Below, in pieces: positions 13,351 through 45,235 of a stretch of 64,000 bases of DNA (position 1 is its first letter; the number at the start of each line of letters is the position of its first letter). Made by a program: the position numbers and the translations under genes. The notes under the pieces are model-generated. The model saw only the letters and a list, made by a program, of their open reading frames with translations. It ran no database searches and had not been told where the DNA came from. The DNA lies in assembly GCF_900116555.1 (NCBI RefSeq), contig NZ_FPAT01000014.1, positions 62,001-126,000 of the forward strand. The letters run 5' to 3'. The DNA comes from Actinopolyspora lacussalsi subsp. righensis (GTDB lineage: Bacteria > Actinomycetota > Actinomycetes > Mycobacteriales > Pseudonocardiaceae).

Positions 13351-13380
13351 GTTTTGTTTTGTTCAGTACTGAAACCACAG
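13351..13380. repeat. 30-nt intergenic motif, copy 1 (upstream of terC)
   Basis: This is one of three 30-nt matches in the window (others at 34545 and 45206). The shared pattern is RTTTTRTTTYRYTC at positions 1-14, followed by RRYACTGAAAMNACAG at positions 15-30. In this copy the centre TTCAGTACTGAA is a perfect palindrome. It lies 51 bp upstream of the riboswitch within a very T-rich stretch. Confidence 0.7.
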
Positions 13381-13426
13381 TATTCGGTTACGTACGACAG
13401 CGTTCACCACACGGACCACCGAAAGG

Positions 13427-13762
13427 TCAACCTCGCCGCTGTCGCCGCAGCAGCCACACCAGCGTCGTTCCCGCGACGATGAGGATCCCGGCGCTCGCGG
13501 CCAATTCGCTGTACGGGACCGGGCTGATCGCGACCGGCCCAGCAGGCTCCGCCTCGCGCATGCGTTCTTCGGTCCAGTACTCGCTGGTGGTGTGCTCGCT
13601 GTTGTGCTCGGTGTGCCGCGGCTGGACGCGGTGCGAGATCGTTTCCCCGCTCTCCTCGTCCGAGGAAAGGAGCTTGGGAACCGTGAAGAGCGCCGCGATC
13701 AGCGCGACCGCGACGACGGCGATCCCGGTAACCAGCCAAGTGGTACGTGCCCGTGTCCTCAT
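13427..13762 (-). CDS. Small two-helix membrane protein, unknown function
   Basis: A 111-residue product that is not recognised. It has an N-terminal membrane helix (WLVTGIAVVAVALIAALF), a polar middle of about 45 residues rich in Glu, His and Thr, and a second hydrophobic helix (ELAASAGILIVAGTTLVWLL) ending in RRQRRG. The basic C-terminus should stay in the cytoplasm, leaving the His/Glu-rich middle outside. The ATG has a strong GGGGAGGGGAAG ribosome site. It lies downstream of the hydrolase/MDMPI fusion on the same strand, but 345 bases away. Confidence 0.6.
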   Translation of the reverse strand: MRTRARTTWLVTGIAVVAVALIAALFTVPKLLSSDEESGETISHRVQPRHTEHNSEHTTSEYWTEERMREAEPAGPVAISPVPYSELAASAGILIVAGTTLVWLLRRQRRG

Positions 13763-14107
13763 GAGACTTCCCCTCCCCGGGGATTCCGGAGCGTCCCCGG
13801 GGAGGGGACGTTATCCGCCGCGGTTGTTCCTGTACATGTTGTCGCATCGTGCCGGGAACGCGGGCACCGCATCAGGGGCGCATTCGCCACCGTGAACTCG
13901 TCAACCGCGGCGACGCGGCACCTCAGCGCTGGCGAACCGTCTCAGCCGGAGCCTGGGGAAGATCCGCGACAGATCAAACGCCAATGATTGTCGCAGCTGG
14001 TCACAGACTCGGAAACGAGCGCTCGGCCAGTTCCCACCGAAGACTGAGCCAGCTCGGTGACCAACGACCACGTTCAATCCTTCCCCACTCTTCCGCGGAC
14101 CCCCGGA
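13763..14107. other. 345-bp intergenic region
   Basis: It holds the ribosome site of the small membrane protein at its left end. No further gene, repeat or strong hairpin was seen. Confidence 0.5.
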
Positions 14108-15382
14108 TCACGATGGCCGGCCGGGATCACGGCCGGCAAGTCCGAGCAGGGCATCGAGCGGTGCTGGGTCGGTGCCGGTGTCGACGATCGGCCCGTACAG
14201 TCCCTCGCGACTGTCGGGCGTGGACATCGCGGCGGCGAAGCGCGTGCAGATCGCGACGTCGCGGTCGGTCGCGGTGAAGCTCTGACCGGTGGCGCGGGCG
14301 AGGTCCCAGCCGTGCAGGACGAGTTCGTCGAGCACGACGGTCGCGAGCTCGGTCGAGGGCATGGTGAAACCACCGGCCTCGGCCTCGCCCTGCCATGCAG
14401 ACGGTTCTCGCCAGGCCGCGACGAGCGTGCCGAGGTCACGGTCGAGCTGCTCGCGCCAGTCGTCGGGCAGCTTCGCACCATCGGGTCGCGGCTCGCCCTG
14501 GGGCTCGTGGCGCGCGGTGTGTGTGAACGCCTTGGTCAGCCCGCACACATGGGCAGCGAGGTCACGTACGGTCCAGTCGGCACACGGCGTCGGCGCGTCG
14601 AGCTGGTTGCCTCGGACGTTGGCCGCGACTCGCCGCAGCTCGGCCGCGGCGTCGGCGAGGTCGAAGCCGACCTCGGCCGTACTGCGCTCCTCTGACGAAG
14701 CGCCGACGTCCAGGTATGCGATCAGTCGCTCGGCGAGTTCGAGCGGACGACTCTTGGCCGCCATGTGCCCTCCGGGCATCACGTCGGCCTCGACGCAGAG
14801 CCGATCGCGGGCGACCCGCACCTGGAACTCGGCCGGGAACAGGCGGTCATCAGCGCCGACCAGGACGTGGATCGGGACATCCGGCCACACCTCGAAGGTG
14901 CACGACTGTCCGAACGGTGTCTCGGCCGGCTCGCGATCACCCTCGGCCATGTCGGCCTTCACGCGGTCGGGGACGTCGTGCAGGAAGACGTTCTCGAGAT
15001 CGAACTCGTTCGACCGTCCGGCCGCTTCGTTGGCTGCTCGGCGAGCCTCGCCCGATCCGGTGGTCTCGAACCACTCCCCCGGGGACTCGCCGGGAATCGG
15101 AATCATCGCGTTGAGCAGCACTATGCGGTCGATGGCATCGCTTTTGCTGATCATCGGCGCGATGAAAGCGCCCATCGACTGCGCGACGAGCACGACATCG
15201 CGGTGGTCGCCGATCGCCTGGTCGGTGATGGCCGCGTACTCGTGCAGGCCCAACGCCGGGTCGTCGCCCTCGATCTCGACCGGGATCGCGACATGCCCCC
15301 GCGCTTCGAGTTCGGCCGCGGCCTCGCGCCAGTACACCTCCCCGGCACCACCGGCACCGGGGATCAGGACGAACGTCGCCAT
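14108..15382 (-). CDS. Fusion of alpha/beta hydrolase and MDMPI-like (TIGR03086) domain
   Basis: A 424-residue two-domain protein. Residues 1 to about 230 are a salicylate esterase/EstC-like alpha/beta hydrolase: MATFVLIPGAGGAG at the oxyanion strand, AQSMG with the nucleophile Ser69, and a PGGHM segment for the catalytic His. Residues 245-424 resemble the TIGR03086/mycothiol-dependent maleylpyruvate isomerase fold, a DinB-like metal-binding helical bundle, with WTVRDLAAHVCG and LDELVLHGWDLARATG supplying the expected His residues. These two families normally occur as separate proteins. The reading frame is continuous with no stop or repeat at the join near 235-245. The function is unknown; a mycothiol-linked detoxification role is only a guess. 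Confidence 0.8.
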   Translation of the reverse strand: MATFVLIPGAGGAGEVYWREAAAELEARGHVAIPVEIEGDDPALGLHEYAAITDQAIGDHRDVVLVAQSMGAFIAPMISKSDAIDRIVLLNAMIPIPGESPGEWFETTGSGEARRAANEAAGRSNEFDLENVFLHDVPDRVKADMAEGDREPAETPFGQSCTFEVWPDVPIHVLVGADDRLFPAEFQVRVARDRLCVEADVMPGGHMAAKSRPLELAERLIAYLDVGASSEERSTAEVGFDLADAAAELRRVAANVRGNQLDAPTPCADWTVRDLAAHVCGLTKAFTHTARHEPQGEPRPDGAKLPDDWREQLDRDLGTLVAAWREPSAWQGEAEAGGFTMPSTELATVVLDELVLHGWDLARATGQSFTATDRDVAICTRFAAAMSTPDSREGLYGPIVDTGTDPAPLDALLGLAGRDPGRPS

Positions 15383-15622
15383 CTCCGCTCATCTCCCCGC
15401 AGAAACGTCACTCATCCGGTACCGACTCCGCAACGGGCCCGAACTCATCGCGGTACAGGAAGCTGACCTCTACAGCTTACAGCCGTCTCAGCTGGGGATC
15501 CCCTGTCGGACGGATCCGCCGGTTACGAGTTCCACTCGAGCACACGGCGGACGAACGCCTGCTCATCCGCGATAGCCACCGACACTCAACTCCCCTGGCG
15601 CACGATTCGGAACGAATGTTCC

Positions 15623-15937
15623 TCAAACCCCTTCACACGGTTCGCCGGGGCCTTGTTCGGGGATCTCGTCGGGACGGGCAGCATCGTGGGCGCGGCGCCG
15701 TGCCCACGACACGAGATGCCCGGCCACACACACGTCGGCATCCGGGCGGAAGTACTGCAGCAGCCGCGCGTCGGCGCGGTCCCAAACGACCAGCAGCACG
15801 TCGAGAATGCGCCGGTGTTCGTGGTCGGCCAGCCAAGCCTCGACATCGACGACCGGGTCGGTGGCGCGGTGGTGGTGCCGGGCCAGCTGGCGGGCCACCT
15901 CGTGGAGCTCGGTGCGGCGGTCGGTACGACGGTCCAT
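15623..15937 (-). CDS. Conserved-looking hypothetical protein, 104 aa
   Basis: Not recognised. The product begins MDRRTDRRTELHEVARQLA and is soluble, His/Arg/Asp-rich and mostly helical in appearance. It contains VVDVEAWLADHEHRRILDVL and a central LVVWDRADARLLQYFRPDAD. Third codon positions are strongly G/C, as in the surrounding genes, which supports it being real. The ATG at 15937 is preceded by GGGTGA; a longer frame upstream is out of character. It lies between the UvrA-like gene and the hydrolase fusion on the same strand, with more than 200 bases on each side, so it is probably transcribed alone. Confidence 0.5.
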   Translation of the reverse strand: MDRRTDRRTELHEVARQLARHHHRATDPVVDVEAWLADHEHRRILDVLLVVWDRADARLLQYFRPDADVCVAGHLVSWARRRAHDAARPDEIPEQGPGEPCEGV

Positions 15938-16167
15938 AGAATCACCCGACGCCCAGCACACCGCACCACAGCGCCCCGGCGATACCGATGATCGAGTACC
16001 TCGGACCCGCCGAGCGGGTGACACACCCTGGCCGCGAGCTCTTAGCGTTCGATCTATCCCGCCCCCTGGCCGGCTCGTGCCGCTGTCAGGAACTGACCGG
16101 TGTGCGGAACACCCACCTGAGCCCGAGCCCGCTCCCGTCCTCGTGGGAAGACGGTTGTGGGGCTCGG

Positions 16168-18558
16168 TCAGCCGCCGACGTAGGACGCCAGGTGCCTGCC
16201 GGTGAGGGTGGAACGTGCGGCGACCAGCTCGGCGGGGGTGCCCTCGAACACGATTCGGCCTCCGTCGTGGCCCGCGCCGGGGCCGAGGTCGATGATCCGG
16301 TCGGCGTGAGCCATCACCGCTTGGTGGTGCTCGACGACGATGACCGACTTGCCGGAGTCCACGAGCCGGTCGAGCAGCCCGAGCAGCTGCTCGACGTCGG
16401 CGAGGTGCAGCCCCGTGGTGGGTTCGTCGAGGATGTAGACACCGGCTTTCTCACCCATGTGGGTGGCCAGTTTGAGTCGCTGCCGCTCGCCGCCGGAGAG
16501 CGTGGTCAACGGTTGACCGAGGGTGAGGTAGCCGAGCCCGACGTCGGCCAGCCGCGTCAGGATCCGGTGGGCCGCGGGAGTGCGGGCCTCTCCGGAGCCG
16601 AAGAACTCCTGAGCTCGGCTCACCGGCATCGCCAGTACCTCGCTGATGTCACGGCCACCGAGGTGGTGTTCCAGCACCGAGGCCTGGAACCGATTGCCCT
16701 CGCACTCCTCGCAGGTGGTGGCCACCCCGGCCATCATCGCCAGGTCGGTGTAGACGACACCGGCACCGTTGCAGTTGGGGCAGGCACCTTCGGAATTGGC
16801 GCTGAACAGCGCCGGTTTCACACCGTTCGCCTTGGCGAACGCCTTGCGGATCGGATCGAGCAGTCCGGTGTAGGTCGCCGGGTTGCTCCGGCGTGAGCCG
16901 CGGATCGCCCCCTGGTCGATCGACACCACCCCTTCCCCGGCGGATATCGAGCCGTGCACGAGCGAGCTCTTGCCGGAACCGGCCACACCGGTGACCACGC
17001 AGAGCACCCCCAGCGGCACGTCGACGTCGACCTCGCGCAGATTGTTCGCCGCGGCACCGCGAATCTCCAGCGCACCGGTGGGTTCGCGCACCGCTTCCTT
17101 GAGCCCGGCCCGGTCGTCGAGATGACGTCCGGTGACCGTGCCCGATGCCCGCAGTCCGGCGACGCTGCCCTCGAAGCAGACACTGCCCCCGGACGTTCCC
17201 GCCCCAGGGCCGAGGTCGACGACGTGGTCGGCGATCTCGATCGCCTCCGGCTCGTGCTCCACGACGAGCACCGTGTTGCCCTTGTCCCGCAGCCGCAGCA
17301 ACAGATCGTTCATCCGCCCGATGTCATGCGGATGCAGACCCGTGGTGGGCTCGTCGAAGACGTAGGTGACGTCGGTCAACGAGGAACCGAGATGGCGAAT
17401 CATCTTCACCCGCTGTGCCTCACCACCCGAGAGGGTGCCCGCTGAGCGGTCGAGACCGAGATAGCCCAGTCCGATCTCCACGAACGAGTCGAGCGTGTGC
17501 CGCAGTGTGGCCAGCAACGGCGCCACCGACGGCTCGTCGAGGTCGCGGACCCACTCGGCCAGGTCGCTGAGCTGCATCGCGCAGGCATCGGCGATGCTGA
17601 TGCCCGCGATCTTCGACGAGCGGGCGGCCTCGCTCAGCCGGGTGCCGTCGCACTCCGGGCAAACGGTGAAGGTCACCACCCGCTCCACGAACGCGCGAAT
17701 GTGCGGCTGCATCGCTTCGACGTCCTTGGACAGCATCGACTTGCGGATCTTGGGGATCAGCCCCTCGTAGGTGAGGTTGACATCGTCGACCCTGATCTTG
17801 GTCGGCTCCTTGTACAGCAGCGCGTCGAGCTCTTCCGCGGTGAAGTCGCGGACCGGTTTGTCCGGGTCGAAGAAGCCGCAGCCACGGAAGATGCGACCGT
17901 ACCAACCGTCCATGCTGTAGCCGGGAACCGTGAGAGCACCCTCGTTGAGCGACTTGTCGGCGTCGTAGATCTGTGACAGGTCGAAATCGGTGACCGAGCC
18001 ACGGCCCTCGCAGTGTGGACACATGCCGCCGGTGATGCTGAAGTCGCGACGTTCCTTCACGGTTTTTCCGCCACGCTCGAACGTGACCGCCCCCGCACCG
18101 CTGATCGAGGCCACGTTGAACGAGAACGCCTTCGGTGAACCGATGTGCGGCTGCCCGATCCTGCTGAACAGGACACGCAGCATCGCGTTGACGTCGGTGG
18201 CGGTGCCGACCGTGGAACGCGGATCGGACCCCATCCGCTCCTGGTCGACGATGATGGCCGTGGTCAGCCCGTCGAGCACATCCACCTCGGGGCGAGCCAG
18301 CGTGGGCATGAACCCCTGCAGGAAGGCGCTGTAGGTCTCGTTGATCAGGCGCTGCGACTCCGCGGCGATCGTGTCGAACACCAGCGAGCTCTTTCCCGAG
18401 CCCGACACCCCGGTGAACACCGTCAACCGACGCTTGGGGAGCTCGATGCCGACATCGGCGAGATTGTTCTCCCGCGCGCCGTGCACGCGGATGAGATCAT
18501 GACCGTCGGCAGCGTGCGGAACGGGTGAATGCGGGTGCGTTTCCTCGGTGGTGTTCAT
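16168..18558 (-). CDS. UvrA-like ABC ATPase (drug-resistance type paralogue)
   Basis: A 796-residue tandem ABC ATPase with UvrA architecture. The first half has Walker A GVSGSGKSS and signature LSGGEAQR. The second half has GVAGSGKSS and LSGGERQR, each followed by DEPTTGLH. Zinc-finger Cys pairs are visible as CPHCEGRG, CPECDGTR, CPNCNGAG and CEECEGNR. Housekeeping UvrA is about 950 residues; the missing ~150 residues match loss of the UvrB-binding region, as in paralogues tied to self-resistance against DNA-binding drugs. The ATG at 18558 follows GGGAGG. It sits 191 bases downstream of a VOC protein and an AraC regulator, a set that suggests inducible protection from a DNA-directed compound. 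Confidence 0.88.
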   Translation of the reverse strand: MNTTEETHPHSPVPHAADGHDLIRVHGARENNLADVGIELPKRRLTVFTGVSGSGKSSLVFDTIAAESQRLINETYSAFLQGFMPTLARPEVDVLDGLTTAIIVDQERMGSDPRSTVGTATDVNAMLRVLFSRIGQPHIGSPKAFSFNVASISGAGAVTFERGGKTVKERRDFSITGGMCPHCEGRGSVTDFDLSQIYDADKSLNEGALTVPGYSMDGWYGRIFRGCGFFDPDKPVRDFTAEELDALLYKEPTKIRVDDVNLTYEGLIPKIRKSMLSKDVEAMQPHIRAFVERVVTFTVCPECDGTRLSEAARSSKIAGISIADACAMQLSDLAEWVRDLDEPSVAPLLATLRHTLDSFVEIGLGYLGLDRSAGTLSGGEAQRVKMIRHLGSSLTDVTYVFDEPTTGLHPHDIGRMNDLLLRLRDKGNTVLVVEHEPEAIEIADHVVDLGPGAGTSGGSVCFEGSVAGLRASGTVTGRHLDDRAGLKEAVREPTGALEIRGAAANNLREVDVDVPLGVLCVVTGVAGSGKSSLVHGSISAGEGVVSIDQGAIRGSRRSNPATYTGLLDPIRKAFAKANGVKPALFSANSEGACPNCNGAGVVYTDLAMMAGVATTCEECEGNRFQASVLEHHLGGRDISEVLAMPVSRAQEFFGSGEARTPAAHRILTRLADVGLGYLTLGQPLTTLSGGERQRLKLATHMGEKAGVYILDEPTTGLHLADVEQLLGLLDRLVDSGKSVIVVEHHQAVMAHADRIIDLGPGAGHDGGRIVFEGTPAELVAARSTLTGRHLASYVGG

Positions 18559-18749
18559 CGTGCCTCCCAGTGTTGGGCGCGTCTCCGTCATCGCTGTCCA
18601 CGGCTGTGCTCCCGAACGGATCCGAACAATGTGTCCGATCGCGCACCGTCGACACGACCGGCGAGCACTCGCCGTGGCCCTGCCGGTGACCTCGACGACG
18701 GTGGGGCCGTACCCCGTCGTGCGCTCGGTGTCCGTCCCCGCCGGTCGCG

Positions 18750-19160
18750 TCAGCGCGACTGCTGAATACGGATCAGATTTCCGGCGGGATCGCGGACGGC
18801 GCAGTCACGAACGCCGTAGGGCTGCTCGGCGGGTTCCTGAACGATCTCGGAATCGCCGACTCGCAGCCTGTCGAAGGTGGTGTCGAGGTCGTCGGTGGCC
18901 AGCAGCAGCATGGCGTAGGTTCCCTTCGCCATCATCTCGGTGATGGTGCGGCGCTCCTCGTCGGTGACCCCCGGGTCTGCCACGGGCGGAGCGAGAACCA
19001 CGGACGTGCCGGGCTGCCCGGCGGGGCCGACCGTGATCCAGCGCATCCTGCCGTTGCCTACGTCGTAGCGGACTTCGAATCCCAGCACGTCCCGATAGAA
19101 AGCCAGGGAGGCTTCCGGGTCCTCGTGCGGAAGGAAACTGGAGTGAATGGTGAGGCTCAT
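18750..19160 (-). CDS. VOC-superfamily protein (glyoxalase/bleomycin-resistance fold)
   Basis: A 136-residue VOC protein containing both beta-alpha-beta-beta-beta units. It opens with SLTIHSSFLPHEDPEASLAF, then FYRDVLGFEVRYDVG, and ends with GVRDCAVRDPAGNLIRIQQ, the usual closing strand with a metal-type Glu replaced by Arg-rich surroundings. Members either catalyse metal-dependent reactions or sequester drugs such as bleomycin; which applies here is unclear. The ATG is six bases from the stop of the AraC regulator, so the two are almost certainly in one operon. Confidence 0.88.
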   Translation of the reverse strand: MSLTIHSSFLPHEDPEASLAFYRDVLGFEVRYDVGNGRMRWITVGPAGQPGTSVVLAPPVADPGVTDEERRTITEMMAKGTYAMLLLATDDLDTTFDRLRVGDSEIVQEPAEQPYGVRDCAVRDPAGNLIRIQQSR

Positions 19161-19166
19161 GGCGGT

Positions 19167-19616
19167 TCAGACTAGTTGCGGAGGGGTGACCCGTGCTTCT
19201 CGATTCCTGATCGGTCTGCTCACCCGCTTGGCCACGCACGCGGGCACACCGGCCGTGCTGGGCGTGGCGGTACGCCGGTAAGCACTGGGAGGCATACCGA
19301 CCAGCTCGGTGAACCGCGTGCTGAAGGTGCCCAACGAGCGGCAACCGACCGCGAAACAGACCTCGGTGACGCTGAGATCGCCTCGACGCAACAACGCCAT
19401 CGCGCGCTCGATACGCCGCGTCATCAGGTAGGAGTACAGTGATTCGCCGTAGGCGCGACGGAACGCGCGACTGAGGTGGCCCGCCGACATGTGCACCCCC
19501 AGCGCGAGCGCTGCCACGTCCAGCGGCCGGTCGTACTCCCGGTCGATCCGGTCCCGGACCCGGCGCAACCGGGTGAGTTCGTCCAAATGTCGCGATGCCG
19601 CGCCGCTGCTGGTCAC
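19167..19616 (-). CDS. AraC-family transcriptional regulator (HTH domain only)
   Basis: A 149-residue protein that is little more than the AraC double helix-turn-helix: LDVAALALGVHMSAGHLSRAFRRAYGES and LSVTEVCFAVGCRSLGTFSTRFTELVGMPPSAYR. The GTG at 19616 is preferred; the longer frame upstream is Arg-rich and overlaps the divergent DUF421 gene. There is no ligand domain, as in the short MarA/SoxS-like and related regulators. It is followed after six bases by the VOC gene and then the UvrA-like gene, which are its likely targets. Confidence 0.87.
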   Translation of the reverse strand: MTSSGAASRHLDELTRLRRVRDRIDREYDRPLDVAALALGVHMSAGHLSRAFRRAYGESLYSYLMTRRIERAMALLRRGDLSVTEVCFAVGCRSLGTFSTRFTELVGMPPSAYRRTATPSTAGVPACVAKRVSRPIRNREARVTPPQLV

Positions 19617-19808
19617 CCGATCGATGTTGCCACGCCGCACGCGAATTGCCCGCCGTCCCCGCCGGCGGGAGCGGCGGCCCCTTCCCGCCACGCGACTTTC
19701 GCCGACCGAGCCGCGTGAGAAAACCGGTTGACCTCGGCCGATGGTAGTTTGCGCCGGCAACGTTCGAATCGTTCGCGGAACTTCCCGGCCCGCCCAAGGG
19801 GGCAGCAA

Positions 19809-20432
19809 GTGATCGATGGTTTGCATGTGTCGTGGCAGACACTGGCGCTCGTGGCGCTCTCGACAGTGTCGATCTACATTTCACTGATCGCGTTCTCCCG
19901 GATCGCCGGGCTGCGTTCGTTCTCACAGATGACGAACTTCGACTACGCGGCCACCGTGGCCTTCGGGTCGATCACCGCCACCACCGCGGTCAGTTCCGAG
20001 GTGTCGCTGCTGCAGGGCATGTTCGCGCTGGCGGCGCTGTTCATCACGCAGAGCCTGCTGGCGTACCTGCGCAAGCTCCGCAGGGTCGAACGGGTCACCG
20101 ACAACCGGCCGTTGCTGCTCATGGACGGTTCCCGGGAACTGCGCGAGAACCTGGATCAGGCGCAGATGACCCGCAACGACCTCTACGCGAAACTGCGGCT
20201 GGCCGGGATCACCCGCCTGGAACAGCTCGAGGCGGTCGTGCTGGAGACCACGGGAGAGGTCTCGGTACTGACCGTCGACCCCGAGGGACGTCCCGTGGAC
20301 AGCAGGCTGCTTTCCAGCGTCGACGGGCCGCAACAGCCGGTACGCAGCGGGCTGCCCACCCACACCGCGGACTCCCCCGAGTCCACCGACCCCTCCTCCG
20401 AACCGTCCACCGGCCCGGAAGAGGACCGGTAA
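19809..20432 (+). CDS. DUF421 (YetF-like) membrane protein
   Basis: A 207-residue protein with three N-terminal helices (LALVALSTVSIYISLIAFSR onward). The DUF421 cytoplasmic domain has FSQMTNFDYAATVAFGSI, RPLLLMDGSRELRENLDQAQ, the LYAKLRLAGI helix and VLETTGEVSVL. The last ~45 residues are an acidic Ser/Pro/Glu tail. The function of the family is not settled; YetF-like proteins have been tied to envelope and spore properties. The start is the GTG at 19809 with AAGGGGG upstream. It is divergent from the AraC operon. Confidence 0.87.
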   Translation: MIDGLHVSWQTLALVALSTVSIYISLIAFSRIAGLRSFSQMTNFDYAATVAFGSITATTAVSSEVSLLQGMFALAALFITQSLLAYLRKLRRVERVTDNRPLLLMDGSRELRENLDQAQMTRNDLYAKLRLAGITRLEQLEAVVLETTGEVSVLTVDPEGRPVDSRLLSSVDGPQQPVRSGLPTHTADSPESTDPSSEPSTGPEEDR

Positions 20433-20495
20433 ACCCCGGGGATCAGTGCCACCGATCCGGCACGACCGAGCAGGACCACCGGGGACGACACGCGG

Positions 20496-21473
20496 CTACT
20501 GCATGGCGGTGACGCAGGGATGTCTCCGGTCACGGCCACAGCAGTAGATCTGCAGCGTGTAATCACGTCCGATCCGAACCCCCGGGTGGCTCTCCGGGTC
20601 AGGAACTTCACCGAGCTCAGCGTTGTCCTCGACGGCACGCCAACTGGAGGTGAAGTTCCCTCCTTCCATCATCAACAACGGTTCGACGTCGGCCCCGCAC
20701 TGTTCACAGCCCAGCTGAATCGGATCGCCGAACGTCCACATCGATTCCCAACCGCCCACTTTCCAACCGGGCGGTATCGACAGATCGTCGTCGTAATCCA
20801 TGTGCCGTTCCTGCTCCCACTCGCGGATGCGTTCCGCGAGATTCTGCGGAATCAGATGCGACGGTGGGAATTCGATGATCCGCTCCGGATTGAGCACACA
20901 CGGGTGAGGAACGAACTCTTCATCCACCACCAGGGCCGGTTCCGGAGGTTCCAGCAGCACCTGCTCGATGTCGGCCGCACGGCGCCAATACAACCACACG
21001 TTCGGGGTGTAGTCGTCCTCGTGGTCGAAAGGACACCACAGCACCTGCAGCAGATCGACTCCCGGAGGGCAGACCAGGTCGGGGATCTCGGTGGCGTAGA
21101 GCTGCGCCACGGGCAACAACGGCATCGGGCTGAGCGCGTGCTCGGCTACCGGGACTCCTTCCCTCGAACGCCGCAGCGTTTCCAAATCCGCAGCCGACAG
21201 CGGGCACGGCTCGCCGGTGGCGAGCCCGCGTGCGGCTCGGACCTCGTGCAACGAGGTCAACTCGGGCGCGAAGCGGTACTTGTTGTGGTGACAATCGTGG
21301 CAGTGTGGCCACGGTTCCTCGGTGGGCCACAGCAGTGGCCCACCGATCGAGCTCTGCTCCACGGTGGGGGCGCCGCGTCGGGGGTGGAGCCTGGTGGTGG
21401 TTCTGGTCATCCCGGCCAGTTCCGGAAACACCTCGGCCATGTTCACCGGGCGTGGTGGGGTGGTGCGTGCCAT
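20496..21473 (-). CDS. DUF1963 (YwqG-like) family protein
   Basis: A soluble 325-residue protein. SSIGGPLLWPTEEPWPHC, LLPVAQLYATEIPDLVCPPG, DLLQVLWCPFDHEDDYTP and GWKVGGWESMWTFGDPIQ form the repeated pattern of DUF1963 proteins. Two Cys pairs (HCHDCHH and CEQCG) could bind zinc. The acidic N- and C-terminal halves fit a cytoplasmic protein. The ATG at 21473 was chosen for MARTTPPRPV; GAGGAG lies about ten bases before it. No function is known for the family. The gene converges on DUF421. Confidence 0.7.
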   Translation of the reverse strand: MARTTPPRPVNMAEVFPELAGMTRTTTRLHPRRGAPTVEQSSIGGPLLWPTEEPWPHCHDCHHNKYRFAPELTSLHEVRAARGLATGEPCPLSAADLETLRRSREGVPVAEHALSPMPLLPVAQLYATEIPDLVCPPGVDLLQVLWCPFDHEDDYTPNVWLYWRRAADIEQVLLEPPEPALVVDEEFVPHPCVLNPERIIEFPPSHLIPQNLAERIREWEQERHMDYDDDLSIPPGWKVGGWESMWTFGDPIQLGCEQCGADVEPLLMMEGGNFTSSWRAVEDNAELGEVPDPESHPGVRIGRDYTLQIYCCGRDRRHPCVTAMQ

Positions 21474-21629
21474 AACGGATGGGACTCCTCGTCGTCGGTG
21501 GGCACATCCCACCACGCACCACCGACGTCCTCACCGCACCCACGACTACCCCGCCCCCGTCCGGACGAGCACCGCACCACGTACCGGCCCGGTCGACACG
21601 CCCACGCCGACCGGGCCGGGCGGTGGGAC

Positions 21630-22823
21630 TCAACCGTCGGCGCGCTGCTGCGAGTTTCCCGCTCCCCCGAGGGCCTGCTGATCCGCCGAGCCGCTGGCCC
21701 GTGGTGTGCTGCTCAGGTCGGTGGGAACTTCCTTGCGGGCCACCGCCTCGGCCGCGCGCACCGCCTCGGCCACCTCGGGGTTGGAGGCCATGTCGAACCA
21801 GGAGGACACCGACGGGTCGTCCTGCTCCGGGGGCTCGCTGGGAACTTCCTGCTCGGGCGGTTCGTAGCGGAACACACCCTCCTCGTCGGGGCTGCCGAGC
21901 ATGCGGGCGAAGCCCTCCAGGGACTTGCTGAACTCGCTGGGCACCACCCAGACCTTGTTGGCGTCGCCCTGGGCCATCTCGGGCAGGGTCTGCAGATACT
22001 GGTAGGCCAGCATCTCGGGAGTGGGCTTGGCGCGTTTGACGGCGGCGAAGGTTTTCTCGATCGCCTTGGCCTCACCCTGGGCGGTGAGGTACTTGCTGGC
22101 CCGCTCACCCTGCGAACGCAGAATGTTGGATTGGCGCTCCCCCTCGGCGTTGAGGATCGCGGCCTGCTTGGACCCCTCCGCGGCCAGGATCTGCGACTGT
22201 TTCTGCCCCTCGGCCGTTTTGATGGCGGATTCGCGTTCACCTTCGGCGTTGAGGATCATCGCGCGCTTCTCCCGGTCGGCGCGCATCTGCTTTTCCATCG
22301 AGTCCTGGATCGACGGCGGCGGATCGATCGCCTTGAGTTCGACCCGGGCGACCCTGATCCCCCAACGGCTGGTCTCGCTGTCCAACACCCCGCGCAGCTG
22401 GCTGTTGATCTGGTCCCGCGAGGTCAACGTCTCCTCCAGGCTCATACCACCGACCACGTTCCGCAGCGTGGTGGTGGTCAACTGCTCGACCCCCTCGATG
22501 TAGTTGGAGATCTCGTACACCGCCGAACGGGATTCGGTGACCTGGAAATACACCACGGTGTCGATGGACACGGTGAGGTTGTCCTGAGTGATCACCGACT
22601 GCGGGGGGAACGAAACCACCTGCTCCCGCAGATCGATCTTGGCGCGCACCCGGTCCAGGAACGGAAACAGCATGTTCAGTCCCGGGTGGGCCACGGTGCG
22701 GAACCGTCCCAGACGTTCGATGACAGCGCTGGTGGCCTGCGGCACGACCAGTACGGTCTTGGCCAGCAGCACGATCACCAGCAGTACGACCACCAGCAGC
22801 ACAATCCACACGGCAGGATCCAC
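21630..22823 (-). CDS. SPFH/Band 7 (stomatin-like) membrane protein
   Basis: A 397-residue stomatin-like protein. One N-terminal helix (WIVLLVVVLLVIVLLAKTVLV) leads into the SPFH domain (VIERLGRFRTVAHPGLN, LREQVVSFPPQSVITQDN, DPPPSIQDSMEKQMRADREK). An Ala/Glu/Lys-rich coiled coil of heptad-like AEGERES/AEGQKQS units covers about residues 185-265, and a Pro/Glu acidic tail ends it. Such proteins oligomerise in lipid microdomains. The NfeD partner lies ten bases upstream on the same strand. The order matches Rv1487-Rv1488 of M. tuberculosis, placing both at the end of the moxR-inhA-hemZ block. Confidence 0.93.
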   Translation of the reverse strand: MDPAVWIVLLVVVLLVIVLLAKTVLVVPQATSAVIERLGRFRTVAHPGLNMLFPFLDRVRAKIDLREQVVSFPPQSVITQDNLTVSIDTVVYFQVTESRSAVYEISNYIEGVEQLTTTTLRNVVGGMSLEETLTSRDQINSQLRGVLDSETSRWGIRVARVELKAIDPPPSIQDSMEKQMRADREKRAMILNAEGERESAIKTAEGQKQSQILAAEGSKQAAILNAEGERQSNILRSQGERASKYLTAQGEAKAIEKTFAAVKRAKPTPEMLAYQYLQTLPEMAQGDANKVWVVPSEFSKSLEGFARMLGSPDEEGVFRYEPPEQEVPSEPPEQDDPSVSSWFDMASNPEVAEAVRAAEAVARKEVPTDLSSTPRASGSADQQALGGAGNSQQRADG

Positions 22824-22833
22824 ATCCGCCTCC

Positions 22834-23274
22834 TCACGGTTCGGCCCACACCACGGCGACGGCCCCCGAAATCTCCATGACCATCACCGTGCGCCCCACA
22901 TCCAGCACCTGTGTCTCGTCGAAAGAGCGCGCCGACCACACGTCCCCGCCGATGCGCACCCGGCCGTCGTGGGCATCCACCGTGGATTCCACGGTGGCAC
23001 GTTTGCCGACGAGCGCATCCACGTTCGTGCGCGGTTCGATTCCCTCGGTCGTCTCCCGCAGCAGTCTGCGTTTGACCGCCGGGCGCGCCAGGAACACCAG
23101 TCCACCGGAGAGCGCGGCGAAGATCACCGCGTCCAGCCACAGCGGCGCACCCAGCGCCGCCGCTCCGGCGGTTCCCATCGCGGCGAGCCCGAGCATCAAC
23201 AGCACGAACTCACCTGAAGTGGCTTCGGCGGCCACCAGGAGCACCCCGGCGATCAACCACACCAACGCGGCCAT
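22834..23274 (-). CDS. NfeD-family membrane protein
   Basis: A 146-residue protein with four hydrophobic helices, starting MAALVWLIAGVLLVAAEATSG. A C-terminal OB-fold follows (DALVGKRATVESTVDAHDGRVRIGGDVWSARS). This is the short NfeD form without the ClpP-like protease domain. It is the obligate genomic neighbour of stomatin-like proteins, and here the stomatin gene follows ten bases later. The ATG at 23274 is taken because the upstream codons do not fit the family. Confidence 0.92.
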   Translation of the reverse strand: MAALVWLIAGVLLVAAEATSGEFVLLMLGLAAMGTAGAAALGAPLWLDAVIFAALSGGLVFLARPAVKRRLLRETTEGIEPRTNVDALVGKRATVESTVDAHDGRVRIGGDVWSARSFDETQVLDVGRTVMVMEISGAVAVVWAEP

Positions 23275-23361
23275 ACACCCATGGTGACAGATCGAATTCT
23301 CTTCGTGACCGGTCAAGTAGCCCGCGAGGGGTTGCTGTCGGCGGGCGAAGCGGATGGGCGG

Positions 23362-24195
23362 CTATTCCTCGGAGAGGGTGACGAAGTCGACGAGCCGTTC
23401 CACGGCCCCCAGCAGCGGGGCCCGCAGGTCCCGGAAGTCACCGACCGCGTCGAGGATCCTGCGCCAGCCCTCGGACGGATCGGCCCAGCCCAGTTCGCGG
23501 CACACCCCGGTCTTCCAGTCCTGCCGCCTGTCGATGTCCGGCCACTCGGTGATCCCCACCGCGGCCGGGCGCACCGCCTGCCAGACGTCCACGTAAGGGT
23601 GGCCGGTCACCAGCACGTCGTCGCCGCTGACGCGCTCGGCGATGCGGGTCTCCTTGCTGCCGGTGACGAAGTGGTCGACCAGCACTCCCAGCCTGCGCTC
23701 GGGGCCGGGGGAGAACTCGGTGACGTGGCGCTGCAGCTCGTCCAGCCCGTGCAGCGGTTCCACCACCACACCGGCGACGCGAAGATCGTGTCCCCACACC
23801 CGTTCGAGCAGTTCCGCGTCGTGCAGACCTTCGACCCAGATCCTGCTGGCACGGGCCGTGCGCGCCGGGGCGTCGGAAACCGCCACCGAACCGGAGGCCG
23901 AACGGCTCGCCCCCCGGCCGGCGGTGGAAGCCACGGGCACGAGCGTGACCGGTGTTCCCTCGTGGCGGAACCCTCCGGTTCGCATCGGAAAGGCACGTTG
24001 CCTGCCGTGGCGGTCCTCGAGAATCACGTTGTGCTTGGTGAACTCGCCACGTTCCAGCCGCACGATCGCGCCGCAGAACTCACCGGCGGCGTCCTCGACG
24101 ACCGTGCCGGGCTCGGCGGGCAGTTCGGGAGGGGACCGGTGTCGGCGCCGAGCGGTACCGGTGAGCACGTCGCGGCCGTAGTCGATCGAACGCAC
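23362..24195 (-). CDS. DUF3097-family protein
   Basis: A soluble 277-residue actinobacterial protein of unknown function. Family features are VRSIDYGRDVLTG at the N-terminus, PAEPGTVVEDAAGEFCGAIV and ILEDRHGRQRAFPM, then the C-terminal VEGLHDAELLERVWGHDLR, VEPLHGLDELQ and VLVDHFVTGSKE. The last part has a Toprim-like look (acidic residues in VEGLHDAEL and LVDHF). The GTG at 24195 starts the conserved region and appears leaderless, with TAGGCT seven bases upstream. It is divergent from the Rv1486c-like gene. Confidence 0.8.
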   Translation of the reverse strand: MRSIDYGRDVLTGTARRRHRSPPELPAEPGTVVEDAAGEFCGAIVRLERGEFTKHNVILEDRHGRQRAFPMRTGGFRHEGTPVTLVPVASTAGRGASRSASGSVAVSDAPARTARASRIWVEGLHDAELLERVWGHDLRVAGVVVEPLHGLDELQRHVTEFSPGPERRLGVLVDHFVTGSKETRIAERVSGDDVLVTGHPYVDVWQAVRPAAVGITEWPDIDRRQDWKTGVCRELGWADPSEGWRRILDAVGDFRDLRAPLLGAVERLVDFVTLSEE

Positions 24196-24202
24196 GACGA
24201 TC

Positions 24203-24208
24203 AGCCTA
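24203..24208 (-). promoter_or_regulatory. -10 element of the DUF3097 gene (leaderless)
   Basis: On the minus strand TAGGCT ends seven bases before the GTG at 24195, leaving no room for a ribosome site. Confidence 0.5.
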
Positions 24209-24329
24209 CCCGGCCATGGCCCCACGGTGACGGTGCCGGGCCGAGGTGCCGCTCGGTTCACGGCGCCGCTCGGTTCACGGGGAGCGCGGCGGAGATCGCA
24301 CCCGTTGGCGGCGATCACGCTCACATCGG

Positions 24330-24335
24330 TATCGT
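24330..24335 (+). promoter_or_regulatory. -10 element of the 24344 gene (near-leaderless)
   Basis: TATCGT ends eight bases before the ATG at 24344. There is no ribosome site. Confidence 0.45.
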
Positions 24336-24343
24336 CAGTGGAC

Positions 24344-25138: not shown

Positions 25139-25162
25139 CACCGCGGCGGACCGGCCCGACAT

Positions 25163-25206: not shown

Positions 25207-25252
25207 ACCGGTAAGCACCTGGCGGCACCGCAGCGCGGCGGCCGATCCATGC

Positions 25253-27163: not shown

Positions 27164-27255
27164 TTGCCGTTTTCCCTCTACTGATCGTTGTTTACTCGGT
27201 TCGGAAACCACACACGGACACCCCTTCCGACCCGGCACGACGGGACGAAAGGGCT

Positions 27256-34384: not shown

Positions 34385-34544
34385 TGGGAAACCTCCAACT
34401 GAGTGCTCGGCACCCCGTGGGGCGCGGATACCACCACAGGGTGATCGCTGTTGTTGCCGATATTGGCACGTGACCGTACTGATCACGCGTCGGGGCGCGT
34501 TGTTGCTTCTATTTCACCTTGCTGGGCGTATGTGTGTTGTGAAG

Positions 34545-34574
34545 TTTTATTTCATTCAACACTGAAAATACAGA
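34545..34574. repeat. 30-nt intergenic motif, copy 2 (upstream of moxR)
   Basis: It has the same length and orientation as the copies at 13351 and 45206. Positions 11-20 read ATTCAACACT, and the ends are GTTTTATTTC and GAAAATACAG. It is followed by further AT-rich sequence (AAATATTAAAC), unusual in this GC-rich DNA. It lies between MobA and moxR, 161 bp before the moxR start. Confidence 0.7.
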
Positions 34575-34636
34575 AATATTAAACATACCGTGTTGCCGCC
34601 GTCCTCGATGGGAACCACGGGAGACCGCCTAAGTGT

Positions 34637-35218
34637 TCAGCGCGCTCGACGCAGCGTCCGAGCCAGGTCCTCGGGAGTATCCACGTCGATGGTCTCCGCC
34701 TGCTCGGCGGGCACGAACAGCGGGTGCAACGGGGACAGCACACCGCGCAGCGCGACCCCGTGCGGCTGTTCGGGCAAGGCCCGCCCCAGTGCGACCGCTC
34801 GCCAGACCCCGACCAACCACTGCGGCCGGTCGTCCGTGTCGACCAGCACCGCTCCCCCGCTTTCCGGAGCACGGTGCAGCGCGGCCAACAGTCGTGAGAG
34901 CGTGTCGCGGCTCAGCCAAGGGTGATCGGCGGCGAGCACGGCGACCAGTGAGACGCGCGGGGGCAACGCGGCCAGCCCCGCCGACAGGGCCGCCACCGGC
35001 CCTCCTCCGGGCGGTGCCTCCCTGGTCCAGCGGACCGGGCGGCCCGTCGACCGCCGGGGCCCCACCGCCACGATCGGTTCCGCGCCGGAAACCGCATCCA
35101 GGGTGCGGTCCAGCAGGGAAAGCCCGGAAAGTCGGATGGCGGGCTTGTCACGGCCACCCAGCCTGCTGCCGCGGCCACCCGCCAGCACGATCCCGGCGAA
35201 TTCACTCGTCGAGGCCAT
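34637..35218 (-). CDS. MobA-like nucleotidyltransferase
   Basis: A 193-residue NTP-transferase of the MobA family. The nucleotide loop is VLAGGRGSRLGGRDKP and the metal-site acid is in VAVLAADHPWLS. DTPEDL closes the domain. MobA attaches GMP to molybdopterin to make the molybdenum guanine dinucleotide cofactor; related CTP-using enzymes and uncharacterised paralogues share the fold. No other molybdenum-cofactor genes are nearby, so the exact substrate is open. The ATG is at 35218, and the gene lies alone after TauE/SafE on the same strand. Confidence 0.82.
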   Translation of the reverse strand: MASTSEFAGIVLAGGRGSRLGGRDKPAIRLSGLSLLDRTLDAVSGAEPIVAVGPRRSTGRPVRWTREAPPGGGPVAALSAGLAALPPRVSLVAVLAADHPWLSRDTLSRLLAALHRAPESGGAVLVDTDDRPQWLVGVWRAVALGRALPEQPHGVALRGVLSPLHPLFVPAEQAETIDVDTPEDLARTLRRAR

Positions 35219-35367
35219 ACGAGCAGACTACGTGCCACGAACCGCGGACATCGACGAATCGTCCGCCGGGGCATCGGGCAGATCGGGGCGACACCGCGGT
35301 GCCGAACTCCGCTCGAAGTCGTGCGGCACCGAACCCGGGGTCGTCGGGGGCGGGTGTGTCGCCACGA

Positions 35368-36291
35368 TCAGCTCGTCTCGTAGGCGTAGTCGTGCTCATT
35401 CTCCTCGGCGGCGCGCAGTCGCGCTGAACGGCGCTGCAGGACCTCGCTCCGAATCGCCCAGACCAGCCCCGACAACCAGACCAGCCCCAGCACGGTGGTG
35501 AGCAGCACGCCGGGAACCTGGGGCACTCCCACGGTGTCGAGCAACAGGCGCGAATTGCTGAACACGATGAGTCCACCGGCTCCCACGCCCAGCACGCGGA
35601 CCGGCAGGATCCGCACGAGCCACGCGGCCAGCGGAGCGGCGACCACACCACCGATGAGCAATCCGAGAGTCACCGGCCACTTCCAAGCCGAACCGCCGTT
35701 GTGCATCAAGAACCCGGCGGTCGCCCCCAGGGAGACGATCAGTTCGCTGGTGTTGACCGTGCCGACGGTACGCCTGGGCAGGATCCGCCCCGTGCTGAGC
35801 AGGGTCGAAGTGGTGACCGGTCCCCAGCCACCTCCACCAACGGAGTCGACGAATCCACCGACCGCACCGAGCGGAATCAACCAGCGCCGCCCCGCCGGGG
35901 TGAGACCGCTGGATCGCACCGGGGTGGACCACGCCGAGAAGCGCAGTACGACGTAGCTTCCGAGCACCACCAGCAGCAGCGCCATCCAACCGCGGGCCGA
36001 TCCGGCCGCCACCGAGGACAGGGCCGAGGCGCCGAGGAAGCCGCCGAGCCCACCGGGCAGTGCGAGCCAGCCGACCATGCGCCAGTCGACGTTGCGCATC
36101 CGCCAGTGCGCCGCACCGGAGACGACAGCTGTCCCGATCTTGGCCAGGTGCACCGACGCCGAAGCCATCACAGGCGCGGTGCCCACGGCCAACAGGCCGG
36201 TTGTGGCCGTCACGCCGAATCCCATCCCCAGCGAACCGTCGACCAGCTGGGCGAGAAATCCGGCCACCGCCACGAGCAACAGAGTGGGCAC
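35368..36291 (-). CDS. TauE/SafE-family sulfite/anion exporter
   Basis: A 307-residue membrane protein with eight or nine helices in two halves. GFLAQLVDGSLGMGFGV is the first TauE/SafE hallmark and GGFVDSVGGGGWGPV the second. The family exports sulfite, sulfoacetate or related anions. The GTG at 36291 is chosen because GGAGG lies five bases upstream, whereas a TTG 18 codons earlier has no site. Directly upstream on the same strand is an Rrf2 regulator. Twin TTTCCAAC repeats lie in the gap, which suggests sulfur-linked control like that of CymR-type regulators. Confidence 0.88.
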   Translation of the reverse strand: MPTLLLVAVAGFLAQLVDGSLGMGFGVTATTGLLAVGTAPVMASASVHLAKIGTAVVSGAAHWRMRNVDWRMVGWLALPGGLGGFLGASALSSVAAGSARGWMALLLVVLGSYVVLRFSAWSTPVRSSGLTPAGRRWLIPLGAVGGFVDSVGGGGWGPVTTSTLLSTGRILPRRTVGTVNTSELIVSLGATAGFLMHNGGSAWKWPVTLGLLIGGVVAAPLAAWLVRILPVRVLGVGAGGLIVFSNSRLLLDTVGVPQVPGVLLTTVLGLVWLSGLVWAIRSEVLQRRSARLRAAEENEHDYAYETS

Positions 36292-36338
36292 CAATGCCTC
36301 CAGACCGTTTCCGCTCGCGTCCGAAGCGCCGAGCGGCT

Positions 36339-36376
36339 TTTCCAACTAAGTTGATAAAAACGGTACACTTTCCAAC
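36339..36376. promoter_or_regulatory. Direct repeats upstream of the TauE/SafE gene
   Basis: TTTCCAAC occurs at 36339-36346 and 36369-36376, thirty bases apart, or nearly three helical turns. The first copy runs into CAAC-TAA-GTTG, a short inverted repeat. Position between an Rrf2 gene and its likely target suggests a binding site. Confidence 0.4.
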
Positions 36377-36426
36377 GGACCGGTCAACACGGTCCCAGCG
36401 TTCGGGACGACACCCCGTGAGTACGT

Positions 36427-36882
36427 TCAGCGCGACTCCCATACCCCTGTTTCACTGGTGCGCGCCGCGACGTCCGATGGAAGCTCGCCGGAGACGAGTT
36501 GGGCTATGGTGACATTCTCGAGCACTTCGCGCAGGCTGCTGCGCACCGCGATCCAGACCCACTGCAACACGGCGACCGAAGGATCGTACTGCACGTCCTC
36601 GGCTCGTTGGCCGTGTATGCTGACCAGCGGGCCGTCGGTGGCGCGAATCACATCGGCTATCGAGACAGTGCTCGGGTCCCGGGCCAGCACCCAGCCACCG
36701 GCCTGTCCCCGCCTGCTGGCTACGAAACCGGCACGCCGCAGGTCACTGAGCACGGCCTGCAGGAAGTTTCGTGGGATGTCCTGAGCGAGGGCGACGTCCT
36801 CGGCACTGACCGGCCCTGCCTGGGCACGGGCTATCTCAACCAGCGCGCGCAACGCGTAGTCCACCTTGGCCGAAATCCGCAT
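36427..36882 (-). CDS. Rrf2-family regulator without cysteines
   Basis: A 151-residue Rrf2 regulator with the winged helix MRISAKVDYALRALVEIA, PRNFLQAVLSDLRRAGFVAS and RGQAGGWVLARDP. IscR and NsrR carry three Cys residues for an Fe-S cluster; this protein has no Cys anywhere, as in CymR-like members that sense through protein or metabolite partners. The start MRISAKV at 36882 is the usual Rrf2 N-terminus; codons upstream (MNNRA) could also be used. It precedes the TauE/SafE exporter by 135 bases on the same strand and probably controls it. Confidence 0.87.
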   Translation of the reverse strand: MRISAKVDYALRALVEIARAQAGPVSAEDVALAQDIPRNFLQAVLSDLRRAGFVASRRGQAGGWVLARDPSTVSIADVIRATDGPLVSIHGQRAEDVQYDPSVAVLQWVWIAVRSSLREVLENVTIAQLVSGELPSDVAARTSETGVWESR

Positions 36883-37215
36883 GGCTCGATTGTTCATCAC
36901 ATCCGGGTGGAACAGTGCCCCAGCCCTTCGACCGACGTCTCCTCGGGAAGTTCGGTCGAACCTCCCCCACGTGGAACGGGGAACAGGAATCGCGAGCATC
37001 GGCTGTTCCGAAAACGACTCGTATGAGAGGTCGAGGGGTCAACCGCTCCCCTGCCCGGTGCGGGTGCTTCCCGGCGAGACCTGCCGGTAGGACGAGAGCA
37101 CGGGGAGCCGGGCTCGCACGGTTTTCGGGGCCGCCCGCGCATGCGGACGACCCCGAAACCAGTGGTGGCGGCCGGAACGGCTGTCACAACGAACCCGAAG
37201 GGTTCAACCGTGGGT
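36883..37215. other. 333-bp intergenic region after the S1 protease
   Basis: It contains the protease terminator hairpin(s) and the upstream region of the Rrf2 gene. No further gene is seen. Confidence 0.5.
37120..37160 (-). terminator. Terminator hairpin downstream of S1 protease
   Basis: GGTTTTCGGGG and CCCCGAAACC form a ten-bp stem with one bulge, and inner CCGC/GCGG pairs extend it. A smaller GAACCC-GAA-GGGTTC hairpin lies nearer the stop (37191-37205). Confidence 0.6.
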
Positions 37216-38355
37216 TCAGCCGGTCACCAGGCTCACGCCGTAGGCGTTGAGGGCCTCGTTGACCGGCTGGAAGTAGGTGGTCCCACCCGAGGTGCAGTCA
37301 CCCGAACCACCGGAGGTCATGCCCTGGGCCTGACTACCGGAGATGAAGGAACCACCGGAGTCACCGGGCTCGGCGCAGACATCGGTGCGGGTCAGACCGT
37401 AAACGGTACCGCTGGGGTAGCTGACCGTCTGATTCTTGGCCTGGATGGTGCCGCAGTGCCAGCCCGTGGTCTGGCCGGAACGGCACACCGAGGAGCCGAC
37501 CGCCGCCTCCTGCGAACCGCTCACGATGCTGGCGTAGCCGTCGTACTGATCGACCCAGGGGCGCAGCGTGTCGTCGGAACCGGTCCGCACGTAGGAGTAG
37601 TCGTTGCCGGGGAAGGAGGAACCGGCGAACGTACCGCTGGGGCTACTGGTGCTGTCGCCCGTGCTGCCGCAGTGACCCGCCGAGACGAATCCACCGGAGA
37701 CGGAGAATCCGACCGAGCAGATCGTGGAACCGTTGATGGTGTAGCGCTGTCCACCGATCACATCGGCGTAGGTGCGCGGCTGCTCGGCGGACTCGACCAC
37801 GCTCACCGAGCCGCTGTCCACACCGGTGGAAGCGACGAATTCGGCCGCGCGGTCGGCGGTGCCCTTCTCCGTGGTCAACACCACGGAGTTGCTGGTCGTG
37901 TCGACGTACCAACCGGTGACCGATTCCGGAGCCCGCTTCGAGTTCCGGTTCAGCGTGGTGTTGGCGGCACGCAGTTGTGCCTTGCTGTCGTCCACGAGCC
38001 TGGGAACGGCGTCCTCGGCCCGCACCCTGTCGAATTCGGAACGGTCGGTGACACCCACGACCAGCTTCCCGAGGTCGGCGTCGTAGTGGAATCCGCCGAA
38101 ACTACTGCCGAGCTTGTCGGCCATACCGTCGGCGGCCTGCCGCGCCACGGCTTCGGCATCGAGCCGTTGTTCGGCCTGAGCGTGGCTCAGGCCGAGGTCA
38201 CGCTGCATGGCCTGCATCATCGTGCTCGCGTGTCGCGGACTCGGATCCTCGGAAACCTTGGCGCTGTCCGCTGTGGCCGGTGCGGTCATGGCGGTCAGCG
38301 TTCCCGCTGCGAGAATCGCGGACGCCGCGATTCGGCCGGGCATTTTCCGCTGCAT
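37216..38355 (-). CDS. Secreted S1 serine protease (streptogrisin/alpha-lytic type)
   Basis: A 379-residue pre-pro-protease. The signal peptide (1 to ~29, ending PATA) and a pro-region (~30-197) of the alpha-lytic protease prodomain type precede a mature chymotrypsin fold beginning near ADVIGGQRY. The triad is His228 in SAGHCGS, Asp252 in NDYSYV and Ser333 in GDSGGSF. Six Cys (213/229, 291/301 and 327/354) should form the three usual disulfides. The ATG at 38355 follows AGGGAG. It is expected to be cleaved autocatalytically outside the cell. A terminator follows and the gene is alone. Confidence 0.95.
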   Translation of the reverse strand: MQRKMPGRIAASAILAAGTLTAMTAPATADSAKVSEDPSPRHASTMMQAMQRDLGLSHAQAEQRLDAEAVARQAADGMADKLGSSFGGFHYDADLGKLVVGVTDRSEFDRVRAEDAVPRLVDDSKAQLRAANTTLNRNSKRAPESVTGWYVDTTSNSVVLTTEKGTADRAAEFVASTGVDSGSVSVVESAEQPRTYADVIGGQRYTINGSTICSVGFSVSGGFVSAGHCGSTGDSTSSPSGTFAGSSFPGNDYSYVRTGSDDTLRPWVDQYDGYASIVSGSQEAAVGSSVCRSGQTTGWHCGTIQAKNQTVSYPSGTVYGLTRTDVCAEPGDSGGSFISGSQAQGMTSGGSGDCTSGGTTYFQPVNEALNAYGVSLVTG

Positions 38356-38553
38356 CTGTGATCTCCCTGTACGCGAAAACGGTTTTGTCTTCGGTGGCAG
38401 GGAAGTTTCCGAGGAACACGATTCAGCGACAATACTGCGTTTGCAGCAGCACTCGGCAATCGGAGTACGTGCCACCGGAACACGCTCCGTACAAAATCTG
38501 CCCAGGAGACAATCACGGCTTGGCGGAAAAACGACGCGTGAGTCGCGACAGTG

Positions 38554-38582
38554 TTGACAACACCCTTCGCCCTTTTTAAGGT
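38554..38582 (+). promoter_or_regulatory. Orphan sigma-70-type promoter
   Basis: TTGACA and TAAGGT are 17 bp apart. The -35 hexamer is perfect and the -10 fits TAnnnT. It points right, into a stretch with no convincing gene. Confidence 0.55.
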
Positions 38583-38588
38583 CTACGA

Positions 38589-38828
38589 TCCGCTTTTTAC
38601 GGCATAAACGTTTTGACCGGCGATTTCATCGTTGAAAACGGAACAACGAGAACCCGACACCATCTCGAACGACCGGTTCACGCTGTGTATCCGAAAAAAC
38701 GCGACGGCATTCCACTCCACGGAACCGAACGTGTAAAACGGGAACGAAAAAGTATGATCAAATCATCGTGGGACTGCGCCGAACGAGTGAGACGAAGTGG
38801 GGCTGCCCGACGTGGACAGCCCCACTTC
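38589..38828 (+). ncRNA. Candidate small RNA (speculative)
   Basis: The orphan promoter predicts a start near 38589, and a 12-bp terminator-like hairpin ends at 38828. The ~240-nt product would lack a good open frame; the one crossing it from 38613 starts with TTG, has no ribosome site and continues through the hairpin. No known RNA family is recognised. Confidence 0.3.
38794..38828. terminator. Strong hairpin downstream of gltD
   Basis: GAAGTGGGGCTG and CAGCCCCACTTC form a perfect 12-bp stem around 11 bases, five bases past the gltD stop. It can act in both directions. Confidence 0.8.
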
Positions 38829-38833
38829 CGGTG

Positions 38834-44849
<6,016 letters not shown>

Positions 44850-44969
44850 TCGGATCCTCCCGTCGTCAGGCAACGACCTCAGCCACGCGAACAGTGGGGA
44901 CGAGATCGTAGAAACCTCTCCGGAGCTGACAAGAAGGATGCGCCGTTGCACTCTTGGTCAGTTTGCGGA

Positions 44970-44975
44970 ACTATA
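44970..44975 (-). promoter_or_regulatory. -10 element of gltBD
   Basis: On the minus strand the hexamer is TATAGT. The region 17 bp further up (TAGTCG) is a poor -35, which would suit an activator-dependent promoter. The predicted start is near 44963. Confidence 0.45.
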
Positions 44976-45005
44976 CAGATTTCCGAGTTGCACGACTACG
45001 AGTAA

Positions 45006-45019
45006 GTAACACGTGTTAC
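45006..45019. promoter_or_regulatory. Perfect 14-bp palindrome upstream of gltB
   Basis: GTAACACGTGTTAC is identical on both strands. Its centre lies about 50 bases before the predicted gltB transcript start, a usual activator position. The arms resemble GTnAC half sites used by actinobacterial nitrogen and MtrA-type regulators, but the spacing (four) is not that of known GlnR boxes (six). Confidence 0.55.
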
Positions 45020-45205
45020 ACCCGCGGGTCCCGCTCCCGGAGTCTGGGACAGCATGATCGCGAAACGTAGCGGCGCACACACTTCGAGCACCGGACAACG
45101 GGGTCACCGTCGGACCGGAACAACCTCGGAAGAACCACTACGGGGATTGCCCGCCTTCACGATGCTGTGCTTTCACCACGATACCCGGCGACGTCCATAC
45201 GGCCG

Positions 45206-45235
45206 ATTTTATTTCACTCGACACTGAAACGACAG
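45206..45235. repeat. 30-nt intergenic motif, copy 3 (upstream of gltB)
   Basis: It has the same length and orientation as copies at 13351 and 34545. The ends read ATTTTATTTC and GAAACGACAG, with ACTCGACACT between. It lies 357 bp upstream of the gltB start and 333 bp upstream of the rightward 45568 gene. Confidence 0.7.

Follow-up and report, generated by a model that had tools for sequence, protein, structure and literature searches.

Two unrelated replication-fork traps, Tus-Ter and RTP-Ter, have been described in bacteria, and PMC6549158 confines the tus and rtp genes to four clades. Each of these genes adjoins a ter site within its own promoter (PMC10331603), and the precise function of fork traps is called enigmatic (PMC4999828). 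According to PMC3317982, another mechanism of termination near dif may operate in bacteria without Tus and RTP. Among the papers listed in the literature searched, none described a comparable site or trap from actinobacteria, with preprints and most subscription papers outside the scope of the search.

The window analysed here is a stretch of 64,000 nucleotides of the Actinopolyspora lacussalsi subsp. righensis genome (positions 62001-126000 of contig C13, in an assembly of 22 contigs), in which a first-pass annotation had pointed out three copies of a 30-nt AT-rich motif. We consider it quite likely that these repeats act as Ter-like sites in a replication-fork trap not described before, fork arrest being what we infer to take place at them. 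On the best reading, the hosts of this putative trap are Actinopolyspora, Saccharopolyspora, Lentzea and their kin.

The repeat and its anatomy

Each of the three copies fits the originally proposed 30-nt pattern with zero mismatches and, as described, is non-coding and lies upstream of leftward genes, the flanking families being TerC, MoxR-type AAA, MobA-like NTP transferase and glutamate synthase. The positions first given for copies 1 and 3 were exact, whereas copy 2 begins one base earlier than annotated (table 1). A degenerate look-alike that had been placed near 27186 could not be upheld, its best profile score being −15.2 as compared with the values listed for the three copies.

Table 1. 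Coordinates, in window positions, of the three putative Ter-like sites, with their surroundings and profile scores.
Site	Span	Strand	Core	Location	Profile score	Remarks
Copy 1	13351..13390	+	13351-13380, with an A-rich extension	between TerC and a short gene	48.9	exact to the pattern; most diverged of the three
Copy 2	34544..34583	+	34544-34573	between MobA-like gene and moxR	69.2	site present in this gap in three genera
Copy 3	45206..45245	+	45206-45235	upstream of gltB	55.6	same gene adjoined by G191:915467

At up to three mismatches the window holds three matches, against 0.00 expected from 100 dinucleotide shuffles, and the whole 4.92-Mb genome holds six, of which three are exact, against none for a reversed control pattern that also gave no match in 61 genomes. 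The further copies are three on contig C22, each with one or two mismatches, while a shorter pattern detected in the same genome a copy on C8 at one mismatch and, on C22, a weak copy at three. In G191, a one-contig genome that carries the label of the window's species, the sites at 926185 and 946161 probably correspond, judging by their spacing, to copies 2 and 1, respectively. Pairs of sites in the same orientation and 1-3 kb apart were also observed (G000:C22:58866/61178; G007:C22:139635/141247; G002:C1:1232091/1233347).

The consensus across genera spans approximately 28 bp and is asymmetric (approx. TTnATTTCRnTCRACACTGAARnnAYAG), with 11 invariant columns that include ACTGAA. Its middle is an imperfect dyad, TTTCA...TGAAA, in which 3-7 of 9 positions are symmetric. 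Next to its ACAG side the site has about 10 bp of A-rich sequence, and T/G-rich sequence lies on the other. The site is oriented with its TTTATTTC face toward dif and its ACAG face toward the origin.

Chromosomal polarity and the terminus

A sequence-only model of 39 nt (R1), built from 33 gap-free sites, returned at E≤0.02 a total of 96 sites in 22 one- or two-contig genomes, with one to nine copies per chromosome; site lists may be incomplete because only part of the first-look candidates was scored (150 of 238 in G191). The first test of polarity covered 19 single-contig genomes and G005. A single minus-to-plus switch was found in all 20 (83 sites), 15 of them informative, the remaining five (G118, G021, G116, G106 and G157) holding sites of one orientation only. 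Within 10% of the antipode of dnaA lay 66 of the 83 sites, and the 17 farther ones all keep the polarity of their own arm; 12 of the 66 near sites lie across the antipode itself because the switch does not coincide precisely with 0.50. The probability of such an order, given the strand counts, was calculated to be 1.5e-15 by assuming independent sites; shared ancestry makes the true probability less extreme. In G191 the minus sites occupy 0.423-0.470 of the chromosome and the plus sites begin at 0.494.

A second model (R2), derived from 43 sites, was run on 16 single-contig genomes outside the first test, for which the training sites came from other species, some of them congeneric, so that the test is independent at the level of the genome but not in every case at that of the genus. 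All 62 sites fitted one switch per genome in 11 of 11 genomes, each of which carries both orientations, and 46 of the 62 were within 10% of the antipode; G090 had already contributed four sites to the order-level sample discussed below. The other five genomes comprise four without a match and G142, with one weak match and no dnaA position. Overall, in 31 of 31 chromosomes placed by dnaA (145 sites), every minus copy comes before the first plus copy, and the single switch falls close to the antipode of dnaA. This set consists of 30 of the 34 single-contig genomes with an R1 match (G030, G142, G173 and G184 being left out) together with the two-contig G005; 26 of the 31 hold both orientations and are informative, and genome lengths were rounded to 0.1 Mb throughout the polarity tests. 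For G030, three of its 12 sites, checked with dnaA, are compatible with one switch. One switch is also seen by eye in the two-contig genomes G002 (seven sites, dnaA on the other contig) and G187 (six sites), which stand outside the 20-genome count.

Several genomes also carry outer sites, roughly 0.30-0.37 and 0.63-0.69 of the way round the chromosome, which keep the same polarity rule. Outlying sites are the best-scoring copies in some genomes, and no common neighbour gene is found beside them.

Seven terminus regions from five genera were read (G000, from the assembly, G003, G083, G029, G248, G130 and G164), that of the window's genome at the join of C13 and C22, in an order taken from G191. 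All seven contain one dif-like sequence inside the innermost pair of opposed sites, a pair separated by approximately 86 to 167 kb, and this sequence agrees with the dif that PMC3025954 proposes for Frankia alni. GC skew is positive to the left and negative to the right of the sites in every region, some of the outer flanks so assessed being only 7-10 kb long. Inside the bracket, the left half of the interval in G029 has a slightly negative rather than a positive skew. The dif-like site and the skew switch, which are independent markers, therefore indicate the same terminus bracket.

Homologues of a protein that reads, by its sequence, as tyrosine-recombinase-like (G000_101573_102970) were also observed within the bracket in 7/7 regions, with 30-90% identity. 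This protein could be an element of a terminus hot spot, or else a recombinase that has been domesticated.

Distribution, gene context and alternative explanations

At up to two mismatches the pattern was found in 13 of 61 genomes including the window's own, namely in all eight congeners examined and in four other genera of the family. R1 at E≤1, with stricter filters applied, had matches in 110 of the 249 genomes of the family and in 28 of its 46 genera, a tally that includes chance matches. At E≤0.01, 8 of 200 genomes of an order-level sample were matched, all eight from the window's own family, the share of other families in that sample not being recorded. An exact degenerate pattern found 28 stretches in 84,980 species genomes: 12 in Actinopolyspora, 10 in Saccharopolyspora, four in Lentzea and two in others, with the lone stretches from Flavobacterium and from a Syntrophomonas MAG taken as chance. 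The family as searched groups at least Actinopolyspora and Saccharopolyspora, whereas NCBI places the former in Actinopolysporaceae, and the latter, with Lentzea, in Pseudonocardiaceae. Several genera of the family gave no site, as seen for G115, G122, G035 and G011 in the R2 search; the site-bearing genera include g1, g13, g22, g26 and g68, and the site-lacking ones g4, g16 and g28. Loci identical to those of named records indicate that the window comes from Actinopolyspora and that g26 is Saccharopolyspora.

The expectation that the motif would be conserved beside the same orthologues in relatives was borne out, above all for moxR. Between the mobA-like gene and moxR, the site is present in Actinopolyspora and genus g68 as well as in Saccharopolyspora (rhizosphaerae, dendranthemae, rectivirgula, spinosa and G157). 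When ten such loci are aligned, which amount to nine independent rows because L056 and L115 are identical and probably represent one genome, no block other than the site is well conserved, and its surroundings diverge. Actinopolyspora, g13 and G248 share a second kept site, at a distance of 82-89 nt from a TetR gene. The sites are also intergenic, as anticipated: taking the best site from each of 91 loci, none of the 72 that are distinct after removal of duplicates falls in coding sequence, defined as a frame whose composition is coding to either side of the site.

The early description of a real, intergenic, oriented site of a protein-binding type stands, but not its tie to the promoters of leftward operons, since 91 distinct sites comprise 18 in divergent, 20 in convergent and 53 in tandem contexts (21 and 32 in the two directions), and the genes next to the first eight copies already pointed various ways. 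Site orientation follows the replichore, not the gene. A promoter-element reading was thus rejected, with neighbours pointing every way and polarity set by the replichore. Operators of a global transcription regulator would similarly be intergenic and could be kept near moxR, and the three window copies do lie upstream of leftward genes; however, no fixed relation to promoters or to gene direction emerges over the 91 sites, and the dependence of orientation on the replichore makes this explanation most improbable. Among the three guesses offered in the first-pass annotation, that of a nucleoid-protein site came closest, whereas a global regulator or a mobile repeat leaves clustering and polarity unexplained. 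The mobile repeat, in the form of remnants or ends of a small element inserted with a replication-strand bias, would agree with short, AT-rich sequences present in several copies on a GC-rich background. Nevertheless, sequence and position are kept across genera while the flanks have diverged, and viral contigs contain no exact pattern, with weak or partial matches in 7 plasmid and 58 phage records; none of the plasmid and phage matches listed (20 of the 58 for phages) belongs to actinobacteria or their phages, four phage records being uninformatively named. We therefore give such an origin hardly any credence.

Two further proposals take the terminus into account. If the polar sites served to steer or unload a DNA translocase of the FtsK or SMC type, segregation rather than replication would be directed to dif, and both the polarity toward dif and the location at the terminus would suit such a role as well. 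FtsK-orienting sequences (KOPS) are likewise polar toward dif, but they are short and abundant along both arms, whereas the present sites are long and few; furthermore, comparison of the site with the Frankia dif, used as a proxy for Xer arms, revealed no likeness beyond that of shuffles. The translocase explanation thus appears unlikely, albeit less so than the others. For sites binding a terminus-organizing protein of the MatP/matS kind, with an incidental polarity, clustering at the terminus and a partly symmetric core can be invoked. However, matS is palindromic and non-polar, and the present sites share with it the association with the terminus while being only partly symmetric and strictly polar in 26 of 26 informative chromosomes, so that this possibility seems very unlikely.

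The putative fork trap and the known systems

A fork trap is favoured by the small number of copies, the long asymmetric site, its polarity, the presence of a dif-like site inside the bracket, the change of skew across the sites, the footprint in the moxR gap and the lack of any of the 72 distinct sites in coding sequence. Against it stand the terminator gene not found beside the sites, the siteless genera within the family and the partly dyad-symmetric core. In the proposed mechanism, a putative DNA-binding protein would occupy the site in a single orientation. A fork arriving from oriC along its own arm would meet the ACAG face and pass, while one that has travelled past the terminus would meet the TTTATTTC face and stop. 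Forks would thus be admitted to the terminus and barred from leaving it, and fusion is therefore proposed to take place near dif; with the opposite polarity, neither fork could reach the region between the innermost sites. On the window's contig, the terminus would lie to the left of the window, placing all three copies on one arm.

No recurrent DNA-binding gene was found beside the sites, nor was a terminator protein found among the conserved terminus genes. TetR, GntR and ArsR regulators and the tyrosine recombinase, found at the terminus or next to sites, were considered, and each looks like an ordinary neighbour.

If the proposal is true, a third independent origin of a fork trap would be a strong argument for convergence, and a new polar roadblock would be available for study and use. 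The sites would also provide simple terminus markers for these actinobacteria, many of which are antibiotic producers, with chromosomes of about 4-12 Mb.

Like Tus-Ter of E. coli and its relatives, the present system consists of few non-palindromic sites arranged in two opposed groups around dif, some of them far out on the arms. It differs in phylum, and the site is no nearer AGNATGTTGTAAYKAA than shuffles are: by taking the E. coli Ter consensus, 43 sites agreed at a mean of 8.3 of 15 positions, as compared with 9.0 for shuffles. No tus homologue (PF05472) was detected in ten genomes, in a search that was positive for the E. coli control. With RTP-Ter of Bacillus subtilis, the system shares polar sites that are about 30 bp long, have a partly symmetric half and flank the terminus; in this case too the site resembles the B. 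subtilis consensus no more than shuffles do (mean, 13.1 of 25 positions versus 13.3), both consensuses being those quoted in PMC3317982. An rtp homologue (PF02334) exceeded the cut-off in none of ten genomes, and did so in the B. subtilis control.

Sub-threshold RTP matches of 16-17 bits were noticed in two g13 genomes (G083:C1:196644-196802 and G020:C1:201092-201247; L180 and L181). They lie approximately 200 kb from dnaA, and none was seen in Actinopolyspora.

The layout of the sites is like that of Tus-Ter and of RTP-Ter, but the system is a member of neither. It is probably a third, independently evolved bacterial fork trap, belonging to Actinomycetota, whose site is related to neither the Tus-Ter nor the RTP-Ter sites and whose terminator protein would be of an unrecognized class.
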